Shown here one piece after another: positions 54,943 through 63,795 of a stretch of DNA of 64,000 bases (position 1 is its first letter; every line of letters begins with the position of its first letter). A program made the translations under genes and the position numbers. Source of the DNA: Psychrobacter sp. P11G3 (GTDB taxonomy: Bacteria > Pseudomonadota > Gammaproteobacteria > Pseudomonadales > Moraxellaceae); NCBI RefSeq assembly GCF_001435845.1, contig NZ_CM003596.1:868001-932000 (forward strand). The letters are read 5' to 3'. Below the pieces are notes generated by a model. That model had not been told where the DNA came from, searched no databases, and worked only from the letters and a program-made list of their open reading frames with translations.

Positions 54943-55854
54943 CTACCCAAGCGTCGAAAAGAACACCATCAGCACTGGTGAGACAATATTGATCAAAAAC
55001 CCAAAGCTAATCGCTAGTGGCACGACTTTTAGACCACCTGACTGTTGAATGATAGGCAAGGTAAAGTCTAAGCTGGTCGCGCCGCCAAGCCCAACCGCGG
55101 CAGAAGGGTATTTGCGCATAAATACCGGAATAAAGATTAATGCAAAGAACTCACGTACCAAGTCATTAAACAACGCGACACTGCCCCAAACCGCGCCATA
55201 AGCATCGGTCATGACAATTGCTGACAGCGAGTACCAACCAAACCCTGACGATAGTGCTAAGCCTTTCGTCCATGACACATCCGTAAATAGTAGCGCGAAA
55301 ATAAGCCCGCCTGCCAATACCGCTAGCGTAAAGATGACACTCATTTCTACGCCGCGTTTATTGAGTAATACTTCTTTTAAGGTGATGCCCGAGCCTTTTA
55401 AGCCTATACCAACCAGTAAAATTAAAATCATCAGCATGACGGTCATAGAGTTTTCAGGCGGCATATAATCAGCAGGCAAGAAATAGCCAATCACCATCCC
55501 AATCACCACACAAACCACTTGCGCCAAGCTACCTCGAATGCTCACCCGATGCTCTTTAGATTTTACACTTGGTTTTTTGGCATGCCATGGACGCAGATGG
55601 TCAAACAGCATAAGCGCAAACAATCCTGAACCAATCGTCAGTATTGATAATACAGTGACATACAGCGCAATTTCACCCAGCTGATTACCCAGGCCTTCTA
55701 CCTGAGACAGCTCAATACCGATCAACGCTAGGATGATAAATACTAGATATGATAGACCTTTGTCGGCCAATTTTGTCATAGTAGGGTTAGACGGAATGGC
55801 AAAGCCAATAAACATTGGCATTAATACCAGAACAAGGGTGACTAGGCTTTCCAT
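54943..55854 (-). CDS. LysO family (DUF340) exporter
   Basis: A 303-residue membrane protein with eight or more helices. Its layout and the sequence ALSSGFGWYSLSAIVMTDAYGAVWGSVALFNDLVREF match the LysO (YbjE, DUF340) family; the E. coli member exports lysine. The conserved FGWYSL and NDLVREF segments are present. It is a single gene, convergent with the hydroxylase pair. Substrate specificity, lysine or a related amine, is inferred from the family only. Confidence 0.85.
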   Translation of the reverse strand: MESLVTLVLVLMPMFIGFAIPSNPTMTKLADKGLSYLVFIILALIGIELSQVEGLGNQLGEIALYVTVLSILTIGSGLFALMLFDHLRPWHAKKPSVKSKEHRVSIRGSLAQVVCVVIGMVIGYFLPADYMPPENSMTVMLMILILLVGIGLKGSGITLKEVLLNKRGVEMSVIFTLAVLAGGLIFALLFTDVSWTKGLALSSGFGWYSLSAIVMTDAYGAVWGSVALFNDLVREFFALIFIPVFMRKYPSAAVGLGGATSLDFTLPIIQQSGGLKVVPLAISFGFLINIVSPVLMVFFSTLG

Positions 55855-56119
55855 GATAAAGGGCTCGCAGCATTTTTAATAAGGCGTTTTTAAGAAGCTG
55901 AAGATTGTACCATATAAGGTTAACAGTATTGATATGAGCCACTGAGATTCATTGCAAATCATTGGTCGTTGTTGACTAAAATGGAAAAAACTGGACGCTT
56001 ATAATGATGATAATAAATATCTTTTTCGAAATGTTTGAACGTTTTTGAGTGCTTTGTAATTCTTTACCTTACAAACTTTTGTTGCTACATTAAAGTACTG
56101 AAAATATTTGGCTAGACCC

Positions 56120-58828
56120 ATGTCGCTATATCAGCTCAAAACTCAGTTTCAAAATCAACTACGCCCGATAAGTAATGCGCTGGTTGAGCAAAATATTACT
56201 GCTAATCAAGTGACAGTATCCGCTGTTTTATTAAGTATCGGTACTGCCTATATCATTGCCAAACCAACGGCTGAACAGCAGCGGCTGTGGCTTTTATTAC
56301 CATCATCATTGTTTGTACGTATGGCACTCAATGCCATCGATGGCATGATGGCGCGTGAGCATGGGCAGGCATCAACGCTAGGAGCAATGTTAAACGAGGT
56401 AGGTGATATGGTTGCCGATACGGCGCTATTAGCGAGCCTGACCCCTCATATTCTGACCCATTATATCAATGATAAAGAGCGGCAGACGTTAATAGCCAAT
56501 TTGCCAACGAACATATTAACTTCTCAACATCATATCATTGCTCTGATCGCCCTTAGTATTGGCACCGAGCTGTTAGGCGTTACTAGTAATACCATGTTAG
56601 GTGTTCGTGCTAATCAAGGGCCTTTGGGCAAAAGCGATCGTGCCTTCTTATTAGGTATGCTTGGTGCGTTTATGGGCATTAGAGTCAAAGCGCCAGTAAG
56701 TATTAAAGGGCAGATGGCTTTACCTGCTATCAGAATAAGTCAATTATTTATATTAACAGAGATAATGCTAGTAAAGACTTGTCTCAATCGACTACGTTAT
56801 ATGACAGAGTTATACTTGATGCACAACCCACCTCAGCTGCGATCCGTACTGGGTGAGTCAACAAACAACTCACTATCTCTTACTGTTGTTTTGCCAAATA
56901 CTTCTACTGATAACGCTCGCCCATTGGAGTTCAAAGAAATGCCAACCACAACCGTTGATAGTCAAAAATTCGAAGAACAGGCCAGTGTTGGTTTTGACTT
57001 GCCTGCATCTAAAATCATCAATGGTGAAAGCTGTTATAACGCTTACGACGGCACGGCTATTTATTATCGCTATTGGCTAACGATGCCTTTAGAAGACATG
57101 AAAAAATCAACTATCAAGCAAGCCAGTCAGCCGTTACGCCAAGTTATTTTATTGCACCGAGGGCATGAGCATTCGGGACGATTAGCAGAGCTGGGAGAGC
57201 AGTTTGCAACAGCTGGCTATCAGGTGTTTGCTTGGGATGCGCGCGGTAATGGGCGTTCAGGCGGCATCAAAGATCATGCTGAGAGCGTTACCGAGCTTGA
57301 GCGAGATTTAGAAAGTTTTGTACAACTGGTGATGGGGCGAACAGGCATTGCTATCGAAGATACATTGATTGTCGCTAGTAGTATCGGCGCGGTATTGGCA
57401 GCAGCATGGGTACATGATTATGCGCCTAATATTCGCGGGATGATACTTGGCACGCCTGCGCTCAGTATTCGTCTGTATCTGCCCTTTGCCATACCGTCAT
57501 TGAAGGTAGCACGTACGCTGGGCCTGATGTCCCGTGTCAGCAGCTATGTTAAAGCACAAGTACTGACCCATGATAAAGACGCGCAGCAGGCTTACAATGA
57601 TGATCCGTTAATATCCAACAGTATCTCGACCGACTTGCTCATCGATACCCATGCAACTGGTCAGCGTCTACTCGATGATGCTGGTGCTATCACCGTACCG
57701 ACGTTTGTCTTATGTGCGGGCAAGGATTATGTGGTCGATAAGCAGGCTGAGCGGAAATTCTATGAGGCGATTAATACACCGATCAAACGCTGGCAGCTGT
57801 ATCCAGACAGCTATCATGCAATTTTTCATGAGACAAATAAAGCCGATGTATTCGCGGACTGTATTGAGTTTGCTGAGCAAGTATTTAGCACACCAGTCCA
57901 AGCCCCTGATTTGAGTACCGCTCACTTAAACAGTGCCAGTAAGGATAAAGTGGATCGTTTGGCGATTAAACCATTCAATCCAAACTTTGCAATTACCCGT
58001 TTTGCGATGCAAAAGTTCGGTCATGTCAGCGATGCGATTGCCACAGGGCTGGAGCATGGATTTGATTCAGGTCATTCGCTGGATCATGTCTATTACAATA
58101 AGCCCAGCGGTCAGAATAAATTTGGACAGGCAGTCGATAAGTTTTATTTAAATAATATTGGCTGGCAAGGTATTCGTATTCGCCGCGAGCACATATTGGA
58201 ATTGGCACGCTTAGCACTCGCAGATATCGAAGATAAAAACCAAAGCAGCAATAAATCATACCAACCAAAACTGTTAGATATCGCTAGTGGACATGGTTTT
58301 TATGCATTTGATCTGCTGACAGAGTTTACAGATTTGTATGCTGAGCTGCGTGATTATGAAATACATAATATACAGGCATTGCAAGCAAAGGCGGAGCGTT
58401 TGGCCATGGTCAGTCGAGTCGTGACCAGTCAAAAGGACGCCTTTGATCCTGCCAGTTATATTGATGCAAATACAAATGATACTAGCGCCAATACTAAAAA
58501 ATCAGATCTCGCTATTGCCTCTGGGTTATTTGAACTATTCTCTGATAATACGCTACCAGCGACGGCTTTGGCAGGTATTTATGACAGTTTAAAATCAGGT
58601 GGTTATCTGATTTATACCAACCAACCTTGGCACCCTGAACAGGAATTTATCAGTAAAACACTAAACAATCACCGTGGCAGTAGTTGGGTGATGCGTTGCC
58701 GTTCGCAGGCGGAAATGGATCAATTGGTTGAGCGGGCAGGCTTTAAGAAAGTCAAAATGCGTATCGATCGCTTTGGTATCTTTACCGTCTCGTTAGCGCT
58801 TAAAACTGTATCAACTGATGACGAGTAA
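56120..58828 (+). CDS. fused CDP-alcohol phosphatidyltransferase, alpha/beta hydrolase and SAM methyltransferase
   Basis: A 902-residue protein with three domains, resembling E. coli YnbA joined to YnbC. Residues 1-230: CDP-alcohol phosphatidyltransferase, motif DGMMAR (74-79) with G88 and D96; but the two other usual metal-binding Asp positions are Asn (N71, N92). Residues about 310-600: alpha/beta hydrolase with Ser421 (ASSIG), Asp536 and His566 (SYHAIFHE). Residues about 640-902: class I methyltransferase with motif I LDIASGHGFY (719-728). I chose the ATG at 56120 over an in-frame TTG at 56108. The phosphatidyltransferase part would attach an alcohol to a phospholipid; the real substrates are unknown. 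Confidence 0.88.
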   Translation: MSLYQLKTQFQNQLRPISNALVEQNITANQVTVSAVLLSIGTAYIIAKPTAEQQRLWLLLPSSLFVRMALNAIDGMMAREHGQASTLGAMLNEVGDMVADTALLASLTPHILTHYINDKERQTLIANLPTNILTSQHHIIALIALSIGTELLGVTSNTMLGVRANQGPLGKSDRAFLLGMLGAFMGIRVKAPVSIKGQMALPAIRISQLFILTEIMLVKTCLNRLRYMTELYLMHNPPQLRSVLGESTNNSLSLTVVLPNTSTDNARPLEFKEMPTTTVDSQKFEEQASVGFDLPASKIINGESCYNAYDGTAIYYRYWLTMPLEDMKKSTIKQASQPLRQVILLHRGHEHSGRLAELGEQFATAGYQVFAWDARGNGRSGGIKDHAESVTELERDLESFVQLVMGRTGIAIEDTLIVASSIGAVLAAAWVHDYAPNIRGMILGTPALSIRLYLPFAIPSLKVARTLGLMSRVSSYVKAQVLTHDKDAQQAYNDDPLISNSISTDLLIDTHATGQRLLDDAGAITVPTFVLCAGKDYVVDKQAERKFYEAINTPIKRWQLYPDSYHAIFHETNKADVFADCIEFAEQVFSTPVQAPDLSTAHLNSASKDKVDRLAIKPFNPNFAITRFAMQKFGHVSDAIATGLEHGFDSGHSLDHVYYNKPSGQNKFGQAVDKFYLNNIGWQGIRIRREHILELARLALADIEDKNQSSNKSYQPKLLDIASGHGFYAFDLLTEFTDLYAELRDYEIHNIQALQAKAERLAMVSRVVTSQKDAFDPASYIDANTNDTSANTKKSDLAIASGLFELFSDNTLPATALAGIYDSLKSGGYLIYTNQPWHPEQEFISKTLNNHRGSSWVMRCRSQAEMDQLVERAGFKKVKMRIDRFGIFTVSLALKTVSTDDE

Positions 58829-58831
58829 TAG

Positions 58832-60022
58832 ATGAATAATCAGCAGGTTAAACCTTATGAGCGTGTTCAGCTGTTTTCAGGGGGCGGTTCACGTTTTGGT
58901 TATTATTTGGGCAGTTATGCAGCACTAGCAGCGCATGATTTGACGCCAGACATTATCGTTGGTACTTGCGGTGGGAGTTTGTCTGCTTACTTAGTACAAC
59001 TTGCGCCTGACCCCAAGGATTTGCAAGCGTCGATGTGCAGCCGTGAGTTGTATCATGTCATCACTGCCATCAGACATGTCGCGCCAGATGAAGCCAATAA
59101 ACGTCTAAAGCTGCGCTATATGACGAGCGCACTTAAGCGTTGGCGGTTATCAAAGCAAAGGGATAATGGACAAGGACAACGTCAAGCAGACAGCTACGAG
59201 CGACTGTTAAATGAGTTACAGCAGTTAGCGATGTTTCGTATCGATAACGAGCAGTATTGGCTAGATGAGCTGTCGCGGTTCGCTGCCAGTAATAATGATA
59301 GTGGCAATACTGATAAAGCAACGCCAGAGATAGCAATCATTGCTAGCCGCCTGTATCAAGCACCTGCTAAGGGGTTGTATAATGAGAAATTCGCACTGCA
59401 AGAGTTATTATTTGCGCCGCCGTGCTTAGCAAATTTACCAAATTTCGTATCAGGTCTGGCTGAAGAGCAAATAACGTCACCAGCGCATATATTTGCAAAC
59501 GGACGCATACACCCGTCTGTAAAGGTACAAACACAATGGGATTTTGCCCCAGTGATCCGCGCGTCTATGGCTGACATGTACTATCTACCGCCCACACATA
59601 TCACAGAGCTTGGCTGGTGCTTGGGAGGTGTGATCAATCTGACACCGATTGAGCTAGCCTGTCAGTTGGGTAACAGCGTATTTGCCGAGACCAAGGCAGG
59701 TTATGACGCATGGTTGGCTGCTCCCGCGATTCAGCGCGTTTTCGGTTTTGATCCCAATGAGCGATTAGAAGCAGTACACGGCTATCAACCAATGATAGAG
59801 CCATCGCATACTAATAATAATGACCGTCAGCTACATTGGTTACCATTTGCCGATAACGAGCAGCAGCTGGTAGGGCAAAATGTGCAAAAGCGTTTTAATA
59901 TAAAGCAAATGACTGTTGAGCTTATACACGCTGACTATGATGGTTTTGTGCAGCAAATGCAGGCGCAATGGCAATATGGCTATCAGCGTACGGCCAGTTA
60001 TATACAGCAGCATAAATTATGA
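58832..60022 (+). CDS. patatin-like protein, degenerate catalytic dyad
   Basis: A 396-residue patatin/phospholipase-like protein. The glycine-rich oxyanion motif SGGGSRFGYYLG (16-27) and the nucleophile elbow GTCGGSLSA (44-52, Ser49) are clear. The usual DGG that supplies the catalytic Asp is replaced: the matching segment reads WCLGGVINLTPIE, with Leu264. It may use another acid, or bind lipid without hydrolysis. The gene begins three bases after the fused protein and overlaps the next gene by 4 bases, so the three form an operon. Confidence 0.85.
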   Translation: MNNQQVKPYERVQLFSGGGSRFGYYLGSYAALAAHDLTPDIIVGTCGGSLSAYLVQLAPDPKDLQASMCSRELYHVITAIRHVAPDEANKRLKLRYMTSALKRWRLSKQRDNGQGQRQADSYERLLNELQQLAMFRIDNEQYWLDELSRFAASNNDSGNTDKATPEIAIIASRLYQAPAKGLYNEKFALQELLFAPPCLANLPNFVSGLAEEQITSPAHIFANGRIHPSVKVQTQWDFAPVIRASMADMYYLPPTHITELGWCLGGVINLTPIELACQLGNSVFAETKAGYDAWLAAPAIQRVFGFDPNERLEAVHGYQPMIEPSHTNNNDRQLHWLPFADNEQQLVGQNVQKRFNIKQMTVELIHADYDGFVQQMQAQWQYGYQRTASYIQQHKL

Positions 60023-60834
60023 AGACTCTCGTAGAAGATATCGCCGAAACCTATACGCCGCATATTATTATCGTTGGTGGGACAAGTGGCATTGGCTTAG
60101 CTTTGGCGTTGCATCATCAGATGCTTGGCTGGCAAGTAAGCGTTGTCGGAAGTAGCGCAGCAAAGATAGCCGATATCAACAGCCAGCATCCTGCTATCGT
60201 GACCTATGCATGCGACTTAACTGACTCGGGTCAAACGCAAAAGTTATTAGATGGTTTGTCAGGTGTCAGTTTCCAAAGGCTAATTTATAGTGCTGGCAGT
60301 TATACTAATGAGCGTGTCCATCAGTTGAACCAAGCCGACAGCGATCAAATGCTAGCAATTAATTTACAAGCATTTGAGCAAGTTTTTAGATGGGCAAGCA
60401 GCCAGTTAAAGCAGCAATATCAGGAGTTGGATTTGATTGGAAGTGAGAGACCTAGCCTTATTTGTATTGCCTCTATCGCAGGTACGATGGATTATCCTTA
60501 TGCCAGCCTTTATGCAAAAAGCAAACGCGCAATGATTGCTACAGCTAGTGCTTATCGAGCAGCACTTATACCTTATGATATCCAAGTGAACTGTATTGCC
60601 TCAGGCTATATTGATACCCAAGCATTGTGTGATTTAAACGATGGCGATGCTAGCCATAAGCCATTTATCATGAGCACGAAGACAGCGGTTCATCATATTA
60701 TGCAAGCGATTGACGATGATGTAGAACTGGCGATATTTCCACGCTCGATGCGCTATATCACGAGTGCCTTAAATCATTTACCTAAGCCTGTGCTCAATTG
60801 GATATTGCGGAGTAAACTGGATAAAGCCAGATAG
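60019..60834 (+). CDS. short-chain dehydrogenase/reductase
   Basis: A 271-residue NAD(P)-dependent oxidoreductase. The nucleotide-binding VGGTSGIG is at residues 19-26, the catalytic residues are Ser152, Tyr165 and Lys169 (YAKSK), and an Asn is in AINLQAFE. The start overlaps the patatin-like gene (ATGA), suggesting coupled translation. Its likely role is to oxidise or reduce a head-group or acyl intermediate made by the adjacent enzymes; this is inference. Confidence 0.9.
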   Translation: MKTLVEDIAETYTPHIIIVGGTSGIGLALALHHQMLGWQVSVVGSSAAKIADINSQHPAIVTYACDLTDSGQTQKLLDGLSGVSFQRLIYSAGSYTNERVHQLNQADSDQMLAINLQAFEQVFRWASSQLKQQYQELDLIGSERPSLICIASIAGTMDYPYASLYAKSKRAMIATASAYRAALIPYDIQVNCIASGYIDTQALCDLNDGDASHKPFIMSTKTAVHHIMQAIDDDVELAIFPRSMRYITSALNHLPKPVLNWILRSKLDKAR

Positions 60835-60855
60835 CATAGATGACTCTGCTATCTG
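60828..60855. terminator. hairpin between convergent genes
   Basis: A perfect nine-base stem (cagatagca with tgctatctg) overlaps the stop codon of the dehydrogenase gene. There is only a weak T tract, so it is a possible terminator. Confidence 0.45.
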
Positions 60856-60869
60856 TGCTTTGATTGTAT

Positions 60870-61778
60870 TTAACCAAACAACCAGTAGAGTAGGGTAAAT
60901 ACTGGCACTCCAATCAGCAAACTGTCTATCCGATCTAATACCCCACCATGACCAGCGAGCATCGTTCCGGTATCTTTTACCCCATGTTGGCGCTTAAAGG
61001 CTGATTCTAATAAGTCTCCAAATATACCGCTCACAGCTAAGCCATAGGCAGCTAATAGACAGACCCACCAATCAAAAGGAGTGAGCCAAAGACCTAATAC
61101 TGCTGCCAAGATTGCCGCAACTAAACTGCCAAAGATAGCACCTTCAATGCTTTTATTCGGGCTAATAGTCGGTGCTAGACCTCGTTTAAACAGCTTACGT
61201 CCAAGCAGTCGCCCACATAGGTATTGGGCAATATCATTAAACTGACTGGCGAATAATACGAAGAGTAAAACACCATGTTGTTCGCGTTGCCAGGTCAATT
61301 GCTGCAAGACAATAAGGCTAATGATGAGTGAGATGAATGCAACACTCAGTAGCAGGTCTAAGTAATTAAGCCGCGTATAGTGTTGAGTCGAGTTGAGAGA
61401 GGTTTTCGCTAGCAGGAAAGTACTTGGCTGTAAGCCTTGCGCTTGGAGTTTATGAATGAGTACGGCTTTACTGCGTAAACACCATAGACGTTTAATCTCG
61501 TAGCTACCGCGTAAACCAATTAATATAAAAAATAAAATGAGCAGCCATTGATAGGGATATACTTGCAAATGAGAACCTTGCGTATCGTTCTTTATTTTTG
61601 CAATCACATAGCAAGTGCAGAGCGCGGTTAGCATCAACCACCACGAGCGGGCTATTAGGTAGATTTTTGGCAAGCGTTTGCGCAGACGAGGTACGGCAAG
61701 CACACTCCAAGCCAAGCTGACAATTATCATCAGGGCAATCACAAACACAATATCAGAAGCCATACCGTGGACACTCAA
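60870..61778 (-). CDS. CdsA-like phosphatidate cytidylyltransferase
   Basis: A 302-residue membrane protein of the CdsA family, which makes CDP-diacylglycerol from phosphatidate and CTP. About eight membrane helices. The C-terminal signature reads [28 protein letters not shown], containing the family's KD and HGGxxDRxDS residues. It is close to the YnbB branch in E. coli, which lies beside ynbA and ynbC. The essential housekeeping cdsA is usually in the bamA-dxr-uppS region, so this is probably a dedicated second copy, serving the phosphatidyltransferase next door. Confidence 0.88.
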
Positions 61779-61884
61779 AGAAGAGGTAATATTTTAAGCC
61801 TATCCATAATGATAGCTTAAATGCTTCTTTAACTATAGTGTTAGATATCGCCCTTGATTGGTTTGGCTATTATCTGTCGTACGC

Positions 61885-63795
61885 TTAAATATGGTCAGTA
61901 ACAGGTATCGGATAACGCTCGTCTTCTATATTGTGAGAAAAGGAGTTAAGCGTAGCGTCTCTCCGTGGCAAAATGATACTGGTAAAAGGTGTTTCAGCTA
62001 AGTTAGGATAATCCTCACGGTAATGCCCACCGCGACTTTCAAAACGCTGATAAGCCGATTGAACAATCATCGTTGCTAACGCTAATTGCCTCACCAATTG
62101 AAAAATGGCAAGCTCACTGTCAGTAGTAGGAGCTTTACTACTCGTATCAGATAGCATGATCTCAGTATGTTCGATTGACTCTTGCCACTGCTCAATTTGT
62201 CGCAATGCTTGCTCTAATTTTTCATCGCTACGTGTGATGCCCATATTGGCTGTCAAAAGAGCTTTCAACGCTATAGTTATCTCTGCAATATCTACGTCAG
62301 AATGAAACGCCTTATCGACCTTATAAATTGGGAGTGATGACTGCTTGGAAGATAGCAAGATAACAAATTGTGTGTTTTCTAATGTCGGATATTGCCAAAT
62401 ATCGGCAGCCAACTGATGCAGTTCATAAGAGGCAGTCGTATGTGGCTGTGCCATTTTTTCTAAAGTTTCAGCCGTTTTCTCTAAAGCTTCTAAGTTCTTT
62501 AAGTTTTCCAATTTTGTTAAATAATGAGGTAAGTTGGCGGCGATGTTGCGACCAACCACCACACACTCCAACAATGAATTGCTTGCTAAACGGTTGGCCC
62601 CGTGCAGCCCTGTATAAGCAACTTCACCTGCTGCATACAGCCCTGCAATATCGGTCAATCCATTGGCATCAGTCACCACGCCGCCACAACTATAGTGGGC
62701 AGTCGGAGCGACCGGAATAGGGTCTGTCGTCATATCGATACCGAGTGCTAGCAGCGTCTGATAAATCTGTGGGAAATGCGCTTGTATAAATGCGGCTGGC
62801 AAGTGACTGACATCAAGATGTACATAGCCAAGTCCGTTACTACTAATCTGATTGGCTATTGCTCGAGCGACGATATCGCGTGGCGCCAATTCAGCGCGCT
62901 CATCAATGTCTAACATAAAGCGCGCACCAGTCTGTGGGCAATACAGTCGCCCACCTTCACCGCGTAACGCTTCAGATATCAAAAAGCTGCTGTCATCTAA
63001 TGCCAGACCCGTTGGGTGAAATTGAATAAATTCTAAATTTGCTAAGCGGCAACCTGCCTGCCATGCCATGATAACGCCATCACCGACACAAACGTTAGGT
63101 GCGCTGGCACGCTTAAATAGTTGGCCCAAGCCACCACTAGCGAGTACAACAGCCGCACTATAAATGGTGAGTTGGCGCTCATTGATATGATCAAAGACCA
63201 GCGCCCCTCGGCAATGTCTAATCTCGCTATCGTCCATGCTAAAAAAAGAGCTGCTAATCATAGGTGAAGTCAGTAACTCTAATGCTTCATGATAAGGCAA
63301 GATAGTGATATTGGCCGCAGTCTGTGCTTTGATGTTTAATGCGTCCATAACGTGTCGACCCGTTGCATCATCCGCATGAGCCACACGTCTACAGCCATGA
63401 CCGCCTTCTTTGGTCAAGTGTAAGTCACTGGTTTTTAAGACTGCAAAATCAGGTGTATTATCATTTTCTTTAATTAGAGTGGTTTGAGTAAATGGCACAC
63501 CTTGCTCGCATAGCCACTGCACCGCTTGCTGTCCTGCACCCAAGATACGGGCAGTATTGTCCGTCGCACACAATCCTGCGCCAGCGATTAAGGTATCAGC
63601 GACATGCTCAGTCACAGAGTCTGCTTTGTCTAAGCTAGCTGCGATACCACCTTGAGCGTAGTGACTTGAGCACACCTCAAGTGCCGCTTTGCTTAAAACA
63701 GTGATATTCAGCGATTTTGGCAGAGATAGCGCGGTGCTCAAACCTGCCAGACCAGCTCCAATAATAAGAACATCAGTTTTTATAATATTACTCAT
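61885..63795 (-). CDS. nadB: L-aspartate oxidase
   Basis: A 636-residue FAD enzyme oxidising L-aspartate to iminoaspartate, the first step of NAD synthesis. FAD motif GAGLAGLSTAL at 13-23, CSSHYAQGGIAA near 46, the HPTGLALDDSSFLISEALRGEGG block and AAGEVAYTGLHGANRLASNSLLE near 376. The frame runs 34 codons further upstream into the end of nadA, but aggag lies 10 bases before the ATG at 63795 and homologues start here. A long insertion (about 420-540), including repeated Leu/Glu residues, makes it larger than E. coli NadB (540). Confidence 0.95.
   Translation of the reverse strand: MSNIIKTDVLIIGAGLAGLSTALSLPKSLNITVLSKAALEVCSSHYAQGGIAASLDKADSVTEHVADTLIAGAGLCATDNTARILGAGQQAVQWLCEQGVPFTQTTLIKENDNTPDFAVLKTSDLHLTKEGGHGCRRVAHADDATGRHVMDALNIKAQTAANITILPYHEALELLTSPMISSSFFSMDDSEIRHCRGALVFDHINERQLTIYSAAVVLASGGLGQLFKRASAPNVCVGDGVIMAWQAGCRLANLEFIQFHPTGLALDDSSFLISEALRGEGGRLYCPQTGARFMLDIDERAELAPRDIVARAIANQISSNGLGYVHLDVSHLPAAFIQAHFPQIYQTLLALGIDMTTDPIPVAPTAHYSCGGVVTDANGLTDIAGLYAAGEVAYTGLHGANRLASNSLLECVVVGRNIAANLPHYLTKLENLKNLEALEKTAETLEKMAQPHTTASYELHQLAADIWQYPTLENTQFVILLSSKQSSLPIYKVDKAFHSDVDIAEITIALKALLTANMGITRSDEKLEQALRQIEQWQESIEHTEIMLSDTSSKAPTTDSELAIFQLVRQLALATMIVQSAYQRFESRGGHYREDYPNLAETPFTSIILPRRDATLNSFSHNIEDERYPIPVTDHI

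Follow-up and report, generated by a model that had tools for sequence, protein, structure and literature searches.

The window analysed here, 64,000 nucleotides of Psychrobacter sp. P11G3 (NZ_CM003596.1, positions 868,001 to 932,000; genome of 3.28 Mb), carries a cluster of four genes for a YnbA-YnbC fusion protein, a patatin-fold protein, a short-chain dehydrogenase (SDR) and a second CdsA paralogue. We propose, with a probability of about 0.57, that this cluster is the 'patatin type' variant, found in Psychrobacter, Moraxella and Vibrio, of the Ynb phospholipid-tailoring pathway. It is the variant that is new; the Ynb pathway itself is known, uncharacterised and widespread in bacteria. The proposal is built on the observed gene content, gene order and co-occurrence, the mutual exclusivity of the patatin and the Ynb-type PlsC in the sets examined, the single clade of the patatin-type YnbC proteins, and changes in the active sites.

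Organization of the locus

Three tightly ordered genes lie on the + strand between 56120 and 60834 and a fourth converges on them. The first (56120..58828, + strand), assigned by its homology to YnbA and YnbC, codes for a fusion protein that has 902 amino acids if translation starts at the ATG corresponding to the N-terminus of YnbA, and 906 if it starts at an upstream TTG (56108). Its stop codon is 3 bases from the start of the gene for the patatin-fold protein (58832..60022, + strand; 396 amino acids; PF01734, E 5e-14), the reading frame of which overlaps by 4 bases that of the SDR (60019..60834, + strand; 271 amino acids; PF00106, E 1e-26). The CdsA paralogue, YnbB-like in its position and presumed role, is on the - strand (60870..61763; PF01148, E 4e-42) and its stop codon is 35 bases from that of the SDR; its ATG is placed as in relatives and an alternative TTG start is at 61778. 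The original prediction, made from the letters of the window, had described a tight operon with a CdsA-like gene lying convergently beside it. The positions of the reading frames and domains bear this out, except that the CDP-alcohol phosphatidyltransferase, the hydrolase and the methyltransferase, which had been taken for separate genes, are a single open frame. Since the gene order recurs in relatives, it is not a chance arrangement.

Co-occurrence of the cluster genes

The family was represented by 149 genomes, 31 of which have ynbC (PF12147). The patatin (E < 1e-80) was present in 23 of these 31 genomes and in none of the 118 without ynbC, weaker matches to other patatins (E 1e-6 to 8e-4) being excluded from the count, and the SDR (E <= 1e-40) was present in 22 of the 31 and likewise in none of the 118. 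By coordinates, the patatin directly follows ynbC in 23 of 23. The cluster is patchy in the genus Psychrobacter, where 20 of 41 genomes have ynbC and 21 lack it; the cluster-type CdsA paralogue (E < 1e-80) was found in all 20 of the former and in 2 of the latter. In G023 and G070 the paralogue is on a different contig from ynbC, so linkage alone is insufficient to explain the association. Fisher tests of these co-occurrences ignore relatedness and are not to be read as probabilities. In 369 genomes of the class the patatin (E <= 1e-15) was found in the window's own genome alone, and PF12147 was found in 16 of the same genomes, 10 of them below E 1e-80 with the window's own included. In G111 and G136, both of the genus, the cluster-type CdsA paralogue is present and PF12147 was not found.

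These results bear on the central claim of the original prediction, that the locus is dedicated to a lipid pathway resembling ynbABC; it is for this claim that a search for co-occurrence and order had been suggested. The genes do occur together across genomes, their order recurs, and the cluster gene is not the only cdsA of the genome (see below); the co-occurrence supports the claim.

Patatin and PlsC in Ynb loci

One hundred ynbC loci were compared, 80 named ones (the best 80 of 571) and 20 further genome stretches. Some of the hundred end at a contig end, and at least four are duplicates (L068 of L067, L140 of L064, L141 of L058 and L145 of L065). The parts of each locus were detected within about 10 kb of ynbC with profiles built from the same 100 loci. 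A PlsC-type acyltransferase was found in 49 loci, a small membrane protein in 39 and the patatin in 24, and the patatin was never found together with PlsC or with the small membrane protein. The SDR and PlsC occur together in one locus only, L083, where the SDR profile match is about 5.5 kb from ynbC. The commonest sets were A-B-C-D-PlsC-small protein (28 loci), A-B-C-patatin-SDR (16) and A-B-C-D-PlsC (15), followed by A-B-C-D-small protein (8), A-B-C-D-patatin-SDR (7) and A-C-D (7). The same exclusivity was seen in the family, where the Ynb-type PlsC (E <= 1e-15) was found in 10 of the 149 genomes, none of them of the window's genus, and never together with the patatin (23 of 149). The HX4D and PEGTR motifs of the Ynb-type PlsC are invariant in seven aligned sequences. 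Whole or partial sets of YnbA-D homologues are grouped in loci whose titles name Pseudomonadota, Verrucomicrobiota, Planctomycetota and Acidobacteriota.

A tree of 93 YnbC rows has a fully supported clade of 26 that unites all patatin-type proteins with those of Marinobacterium and P. coccoides, and the copies of another genus of the family (g15) sit elsewhere, with Pseudomonas and Gilliamella. The tree was made by a quick method, with long branches flagged (including that of Vibrio with Marinobacterium), and it left out four duplicate or partial loci and, on trimming, L098, L101, L106, L123 and L124. The patatin and the SDR had been taken for simple additions to the E. coli genes; they instead hold the place of PlsC, which is in about half of the 100 loci and never beside the patatin. 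We therefore interpret the variant as a swap of modules in one clade in place of an expansion of the E. coli set.

Some related loci were seen in passing. The small membrane protein family (L117:13076-13519 and relatives) recurs near ynbD in its 39 loci, and the one member scanned had no Pfam match. G039, G084, G090 and G072 have a Ynb-type PlsC without a PF12147 match, each with a CdsA-like match within 1.1 kb, and are possible remnants. The two Vibrio xiamenensis contigs with the cluster (L067 and L068) are identical over about 20 kb, which may be a recent duplication or an assembly artefact.

Active sites of the cluster proteins

In the numbering of the 906-residue frame, residues 5-230 of the fusion match E. 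coli YnbA (35% identity over 226 columns) and residues 304-899 match E. coli YnbC (39.5% over 607 columns, E 6.5e-155) by BLASTP. The AlphaFold2 model (mean pLDDT 83.8) has confident domains on both sides of a disordered linker (243-297), namely a helical CDP-alcohol phosphotransferase domain (about 7-239), followed after the linker by a monoglyceride-lipase-like hydrolase (about 300-595) and a Methyltransf_20 domain (about 600-900). The canonical signature of CDP-alcohol phosphotransferases, DxxDGxxAR...GxxxDxxxD, was found neither in the fusion nor in 62 stand-alone YnbA rows, 62 of 62 of which have Asn for the first and third Asp. The fusion has NxxDGxxAR...GxxxNxxxD in the form NAIDGMMAREHGQASTLGAMLNEVGD (56330..56407, + strand), in which Asn replaces the first and third Asp and the second and fourth Asp are kept. 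Three other members of this enzyme family in the same genome have the canonical signature. We take the two stronger PF01066 proteins of the genome to be probably PgsA and PssA; besides these two there is a canonical CDP-alcohol phosphotransferase of about 212 amino acids (L164; G000:C1:2069957-2070274). The head-group transfer that had been predicted needs qualifying, since two of the four signature aspartates are replaced. All eight residues of the signature are described as absolutely conserved in one paper (PMC4634129). In the YnbA of Verrucomicrobiota and Planctomycetota (for example L073:7564-8235) the signature Arg is, in nine rows, also replaced by Leu in addition to both Asn.

The YnbC part has PF12146 and PF12147 in one chain, a hydrolase plus Methyltransf_20. 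The hydrolase is nearest to monoglyceride lipases by profile (E 4e-32) and by fold, O-methyltransferase structures coming further down the fold list of the YnbC part, and its Ser, Asp and His are invariant across 12 aligned sequences; its NCBIfam matches below the curated cut-off include lysophospholipase L2.

The predicted structure of the patatin-fold protein matches solved patatins (mean pLDDT 72.6, with five loops below 50 in addition to the N-terminus). Its active site differs, with Cys46 at the position of the nucleophilic Ser and Leu264 at that of the catalytic Asp. Among 181 close relatives, taken from the best 120 of 368 and the best 120 of 449 matches with some genes counted twice, the Ser is replaced by Cys in 181 of 181 and the Asp of the DGG motif by Leu, Met, Ile or Phe in 181 of 181, so that the Ser/Asp dyad of patatin-like phospholipases (GxSxG, DG[GA]) is absent at both positions throughout. 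Cys46, Gly47, Gly48, Ser245 and Asp248 are invariant in the same 181. Trimming of acyl chains, which had been predicted, is thus not supported for the patatin and is better supported for the YnbC hydrolase, with its likeness to monoglyceride lipases and its invariant Ser, Asp and His. The SDR has the Asn-Ser-Tyr-Lys tetrad typical of short-chain dehydrogenases as Asn115, Ser152, Tyr165 and Lys169, all invariant in seven aligned sequences, the window's own included.

The CdsA paralogue

A housekeeping, canonical cdsA is present elsewhere in the genome (G000:C1:1030318-1031082), between uppS and dxr. The possibility that the cluster gene is the sole cdsA of the genome was thus rejected, and the second cdsA which the original prediction had advised looking for was found. 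The paralogue has the conserved C-terminal KD-G-HGG-DR-D region of CdsA-type cytidylyltransferases. It is 29% identical to the canonical CdsA of its own genome and 28% to E. coli YnbB in alignments, and it scored 102 bits in BLASTP with E. coli YnbB, 108 with one YnbB of another genus of the family and 78.6-105 with 11 canonical CdsA proteins; of the 11 genome proteins chosen as canonical controls, L180 turned out to belong to a ynb locus as its YnbB. A tree of 94 C-terminal halves, in which 80 of the 86 loci with such a protein were used (the others being duplicates, a fragment or without the motif used for trimming), shows three groups, namely canonical CdsA (11 rows, 100/99), the majority of the YnbB proteins (95/81) and the patatin-type proteins from Psychrobacter and Moraxella (20 rows, 96/91). 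In this tree the Vibrio copy is unplaced and the fork that joins the three groups is weak (60/20). Given these scores and this fork, the paralogue may be either an old YnbB or a separate cdsA duplicate recruited for the same task. The likeness to ynbB that had been pointed out therefore holds for its position and its status as a second paralogue and not for nearness in sequence to YnbB over canonical CdsA.

YnbD is encoded elsewhere

The original comparison with ynbA, ynbB and ynbC was apt and left out ynbD, the fourth gene of the E. coli operon, which codes for a protein with PAP2 and dual-specificity phosphatase domains. A YnbD homologue is present in the window's genome as an open frame of 547 amino acids (G000:C1:1552237-1553868), unlinked to the cluster; Pfam matched its PAP2 domain and gave no DSPc match, and its HCX5R motif was read by eye. 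In the 41 genomes of the genus YnbD was found in 14 of the 20 with ynbC, always as an open frame, and in 3 of the 21 without ynbC, always interrupted: the frame is broken by stops at 32 and 202 of 508 codons in G085 and by one late stop at 477 of 508 in G140, and the gene of G088 is divided between two frames close to the domain boundary. Partial matches in G020 and G038 were counted only in the figure for the whole family. The interruption of YnbD in genomes without ynbC suggests that it loses its use once the cluster is gone. Because Moraxella and Vibrio xiamenensis keep a patatin-type cluster with YnbD adjoining the CdsA paralogue, the separation in the window's genome is probably secondary. 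One study reports no complementation by YnbD in strains short of undecaprenyl-pyrophosphate phosphatase or PGP phosphatase (PMC7413402).

Proposed pathway and alternatives

As judged from published results and the make-up of the locus, the CdsA paralogue would activate phosphatidic acid, yielding CDP-diacylglycerol destined for a minor lipid, and the YnbA domain, with its rebuilt metal site, would transfer the phosphatidyl group to a polar acceptor that is possibly phosphorylated. YnbD, encoded elsewhere, would then remove a phosphate, the YnbC hydrolase domain an acyl chain, the YnbC methyltransferase domain would cap the product and the SDR would reduce or oxidise it. The patatin would fill the acyl-chain slot that PlsC holds in other lineages, perhaps as a Cys-dependent acyl transferase and not as a Ser/Asp lipase. 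Each of these reactions is what we infer from the genes, and their order and the product are guesses.

Several findings weigh against this proposal. No lipid, reaction or phenotype was found for any patatin-type strain. The altered signature of YnbA and the missing dyad of the patatin could each mean that activity was lost. P. coccoides keeps the fusion without the patatin, P. submarinus lacks the SDR and Marinobacterium lacks the patatin; in Marinobacterium and P. coccoides no such patatin was found anywhere in the genome at E <= 1e-5. The exclusivity of patatin and PlsC is clear in the sets examined and few evolutionary events lie behind it, because 3 changes on the YnbC tree are enough to account for the patatin label. 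The CdsA paralogue appears as near to canonical CdsA as to YnbB and is not clearly placed by the tree. Of the 20 Psychrobacter genomes with ynbC, 6 gave no YnbD match. Among the 4 genomes of the genus Moraxella with the cluster, 2 (G036 and G081) have YnbD in two pieces, so that YnbD can be broken where ynbC is present as well; the stops of the other two (G025 and G089) are, by coordinates, at the C-terminal end. Lastly, published work links YnbB to a different product, MPIase, a GlcNAc-PP-DAG glycolipid.

This last point leads to another explanation, that CDP-diacylglycerol from the CdsA paralogue goes to a diacylglycerol-pyrophosphoryl sugar by an MPIase-like route and the other genes tailor or recycle it. 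One paper reports that overproduction of E. coli YnbB raises MPIase and that YnbB cannot replace CdsA, and also that deletion of ynbB caused no significant change in the MPIase level (PMC6362211); the title of a follow-up study, which we know from a reference list, calls YnbB dedicated to MPIase biosynthesis. A phosphate nucleophile might also tolerate the altered metal site of YnbA. However, the published route needs neither YnbA nor YnbC, and the cluster is present in phyla where enterobacterial common-antigen genes would not be expected. We consider an MPIase-like route unlikely. In a further paper ynbB is reported to be dispensable for phosphoglyceride-linked enterobacterial common antigen (PMC8609368). 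As to regulation, ynbA is reported, as quoted in PMC12871917, to be activated by BglJ-RcsB.

The patatin and the SDR could also be passengers of a functional unit made of YnbA-YnbC and the CdsA paralogue, the patatin being a degenerate, inactive phospholipase. Replacement of both dyad residues would agree with this, as would P. coccoides, which lacks both patatin and SDR and yet keeps the fusion and the CdsA paralogue. However, neither gene was found in any of the 118 family genomes without ynbC, the patatin adjoins ynbC in 23 of 23, and the invariance of five of its residues in 181 of 181 relatives does not resemble decay; we consider it improbable that these genes are passengers. Least probable, and in our view very doubtful, is a catabolic cluster in which YnbC and the patatin would act as lipases in the remodelling or salvage of lysophospholipids and monoglycerides. 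The nearness of the YnbC hydrolase to monoglyceride lipases and its lysophospholipase L2 match speak for it, whereas a CTP-consuming synthase and a CDP-alcohol phosphotransferase would have no obvious role in salvage and the patatin lacks the lipase dyad.

We thus prefer a patatin-type variant of the Ynb pathway. A bolder version of it, which we put forward only tentatively and hold to be rather unlikely, is that the YnbA family with its two-Asn metal site catalyses a reaction outside the usual CDP-alcohol chemistry, that in one clade PlsC was displaced by a Cys-nucleophile patatin acting as a thiol-dependent lipid transacylase, and that the product is an undescribed methylated phospholipid. 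A literature search, which covered open-licence papers only and is weak evidence, found no matching Cys-nucleophile patatin and no matching cluster of patatin, SDR and CDP-alcohol genes and, among the papers listed, no description that matches the divergent CDP-alcohol phosphotransferase motif and no product assigned to ynbA, ynbB, ynbC or ynbD. Nothing useful was found in the literature on Psychrobacter lipidomics.

In E. coli K-12 the ynb genes are lipid genes that are still to be solved, and loci homologous to them are in records of at least four phyla. The comparison lengthens the list of parts of the pathway to YnbA-D, PlsC or patatin with SDR, and the small membrane protein, and it reveals parts that replace each other. 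It also singles out two protein families with altered active sites, YnbA and the patatin, which can be tested by single substitutions. If its product were found, it would add a lipid or a lipid modification to those described for bacterial membranes.

Other features of the locus

A terminator-like hairpin lies between the convergent genes (60833..60859, + strand). It is a consensus match only, and 7 such sites were found in 55800-61900 when 4.7 were expected from shuffles. The GC content of the four cluster genes is 43.6-46.7% and their GC3 is 40.8-43.8%, and the neighbouring genes are alike. A recent foreign origin of the cluster was thus rejected, notwithstanding a homologous cluster on the mobilizable plasmid pNP7-2 of Moraxella osloensis (L159, NZ_CP024445.1:102662-108955). 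The plasmid keeps the gene order methyltransferase, patatin, SDR, cytidylyltransferase, PAP2. A transposase lies between its cytidylyltransferase and PAP2 genes, and the frame that joins the YnbA part to the hydrolase part contains a stop. A role in anti-phage defence was also rejected because the PADLOC models matched the 4 proteins with 0 families at E 0.01.

Comparison with known systems

The canonical CdsA of the same genome (uppS-cdsA-dxr) and the paralogue have PF01148 and the conserved C-terminal half in common, and the 11 canonical rows form a clade of their own apart from the paralogue. The YnbA domain has the PF01066 match, the helical domain and the second and fourth Asp in common with CDP-alcohol phosphotransferases of the RsPIPS type, and differs from them in the Asn that replaces the first and third signature Asp. 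The patatin and its relatives differ from PlpD-like bacterial patatins (PDB 5fqu/5fya) in having Cys for the nucleophilic Ser and Leu, Met, Ile or Phe for the Asp of DGG, and the single stretches in which the patatin sequence matches PlpD are weak (independent E values of 11 and 0.023). Compared with E. coli K-12 ynbABCD (NC_000913.3:1477621-1482201), the window has homologues of YnbA and YnbC, a second CdsA paralogue and the same Asn/Asn signature of YnbA. It differs in the fusion of YnbA to YnbC, in a CdsA paralogue that runs convergently and is of unclear orthology to YnbB, in a YnbD encoded apart from the cluster, and in the presence of the patatin and the SDR, the E. coli operon being without patatin, SDR and PlsC. 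In the PlsC-type loci of Pseudomonas, Lysobacter, Rhizobium, Burkholderia, Verrucomicrobiota and others, YnbA, YnbB, YnbC and usually YnbD are clustered, and a PF01553 acyltransferase, often with the small membrane protein, is found where the window has the patatin and the SDR.

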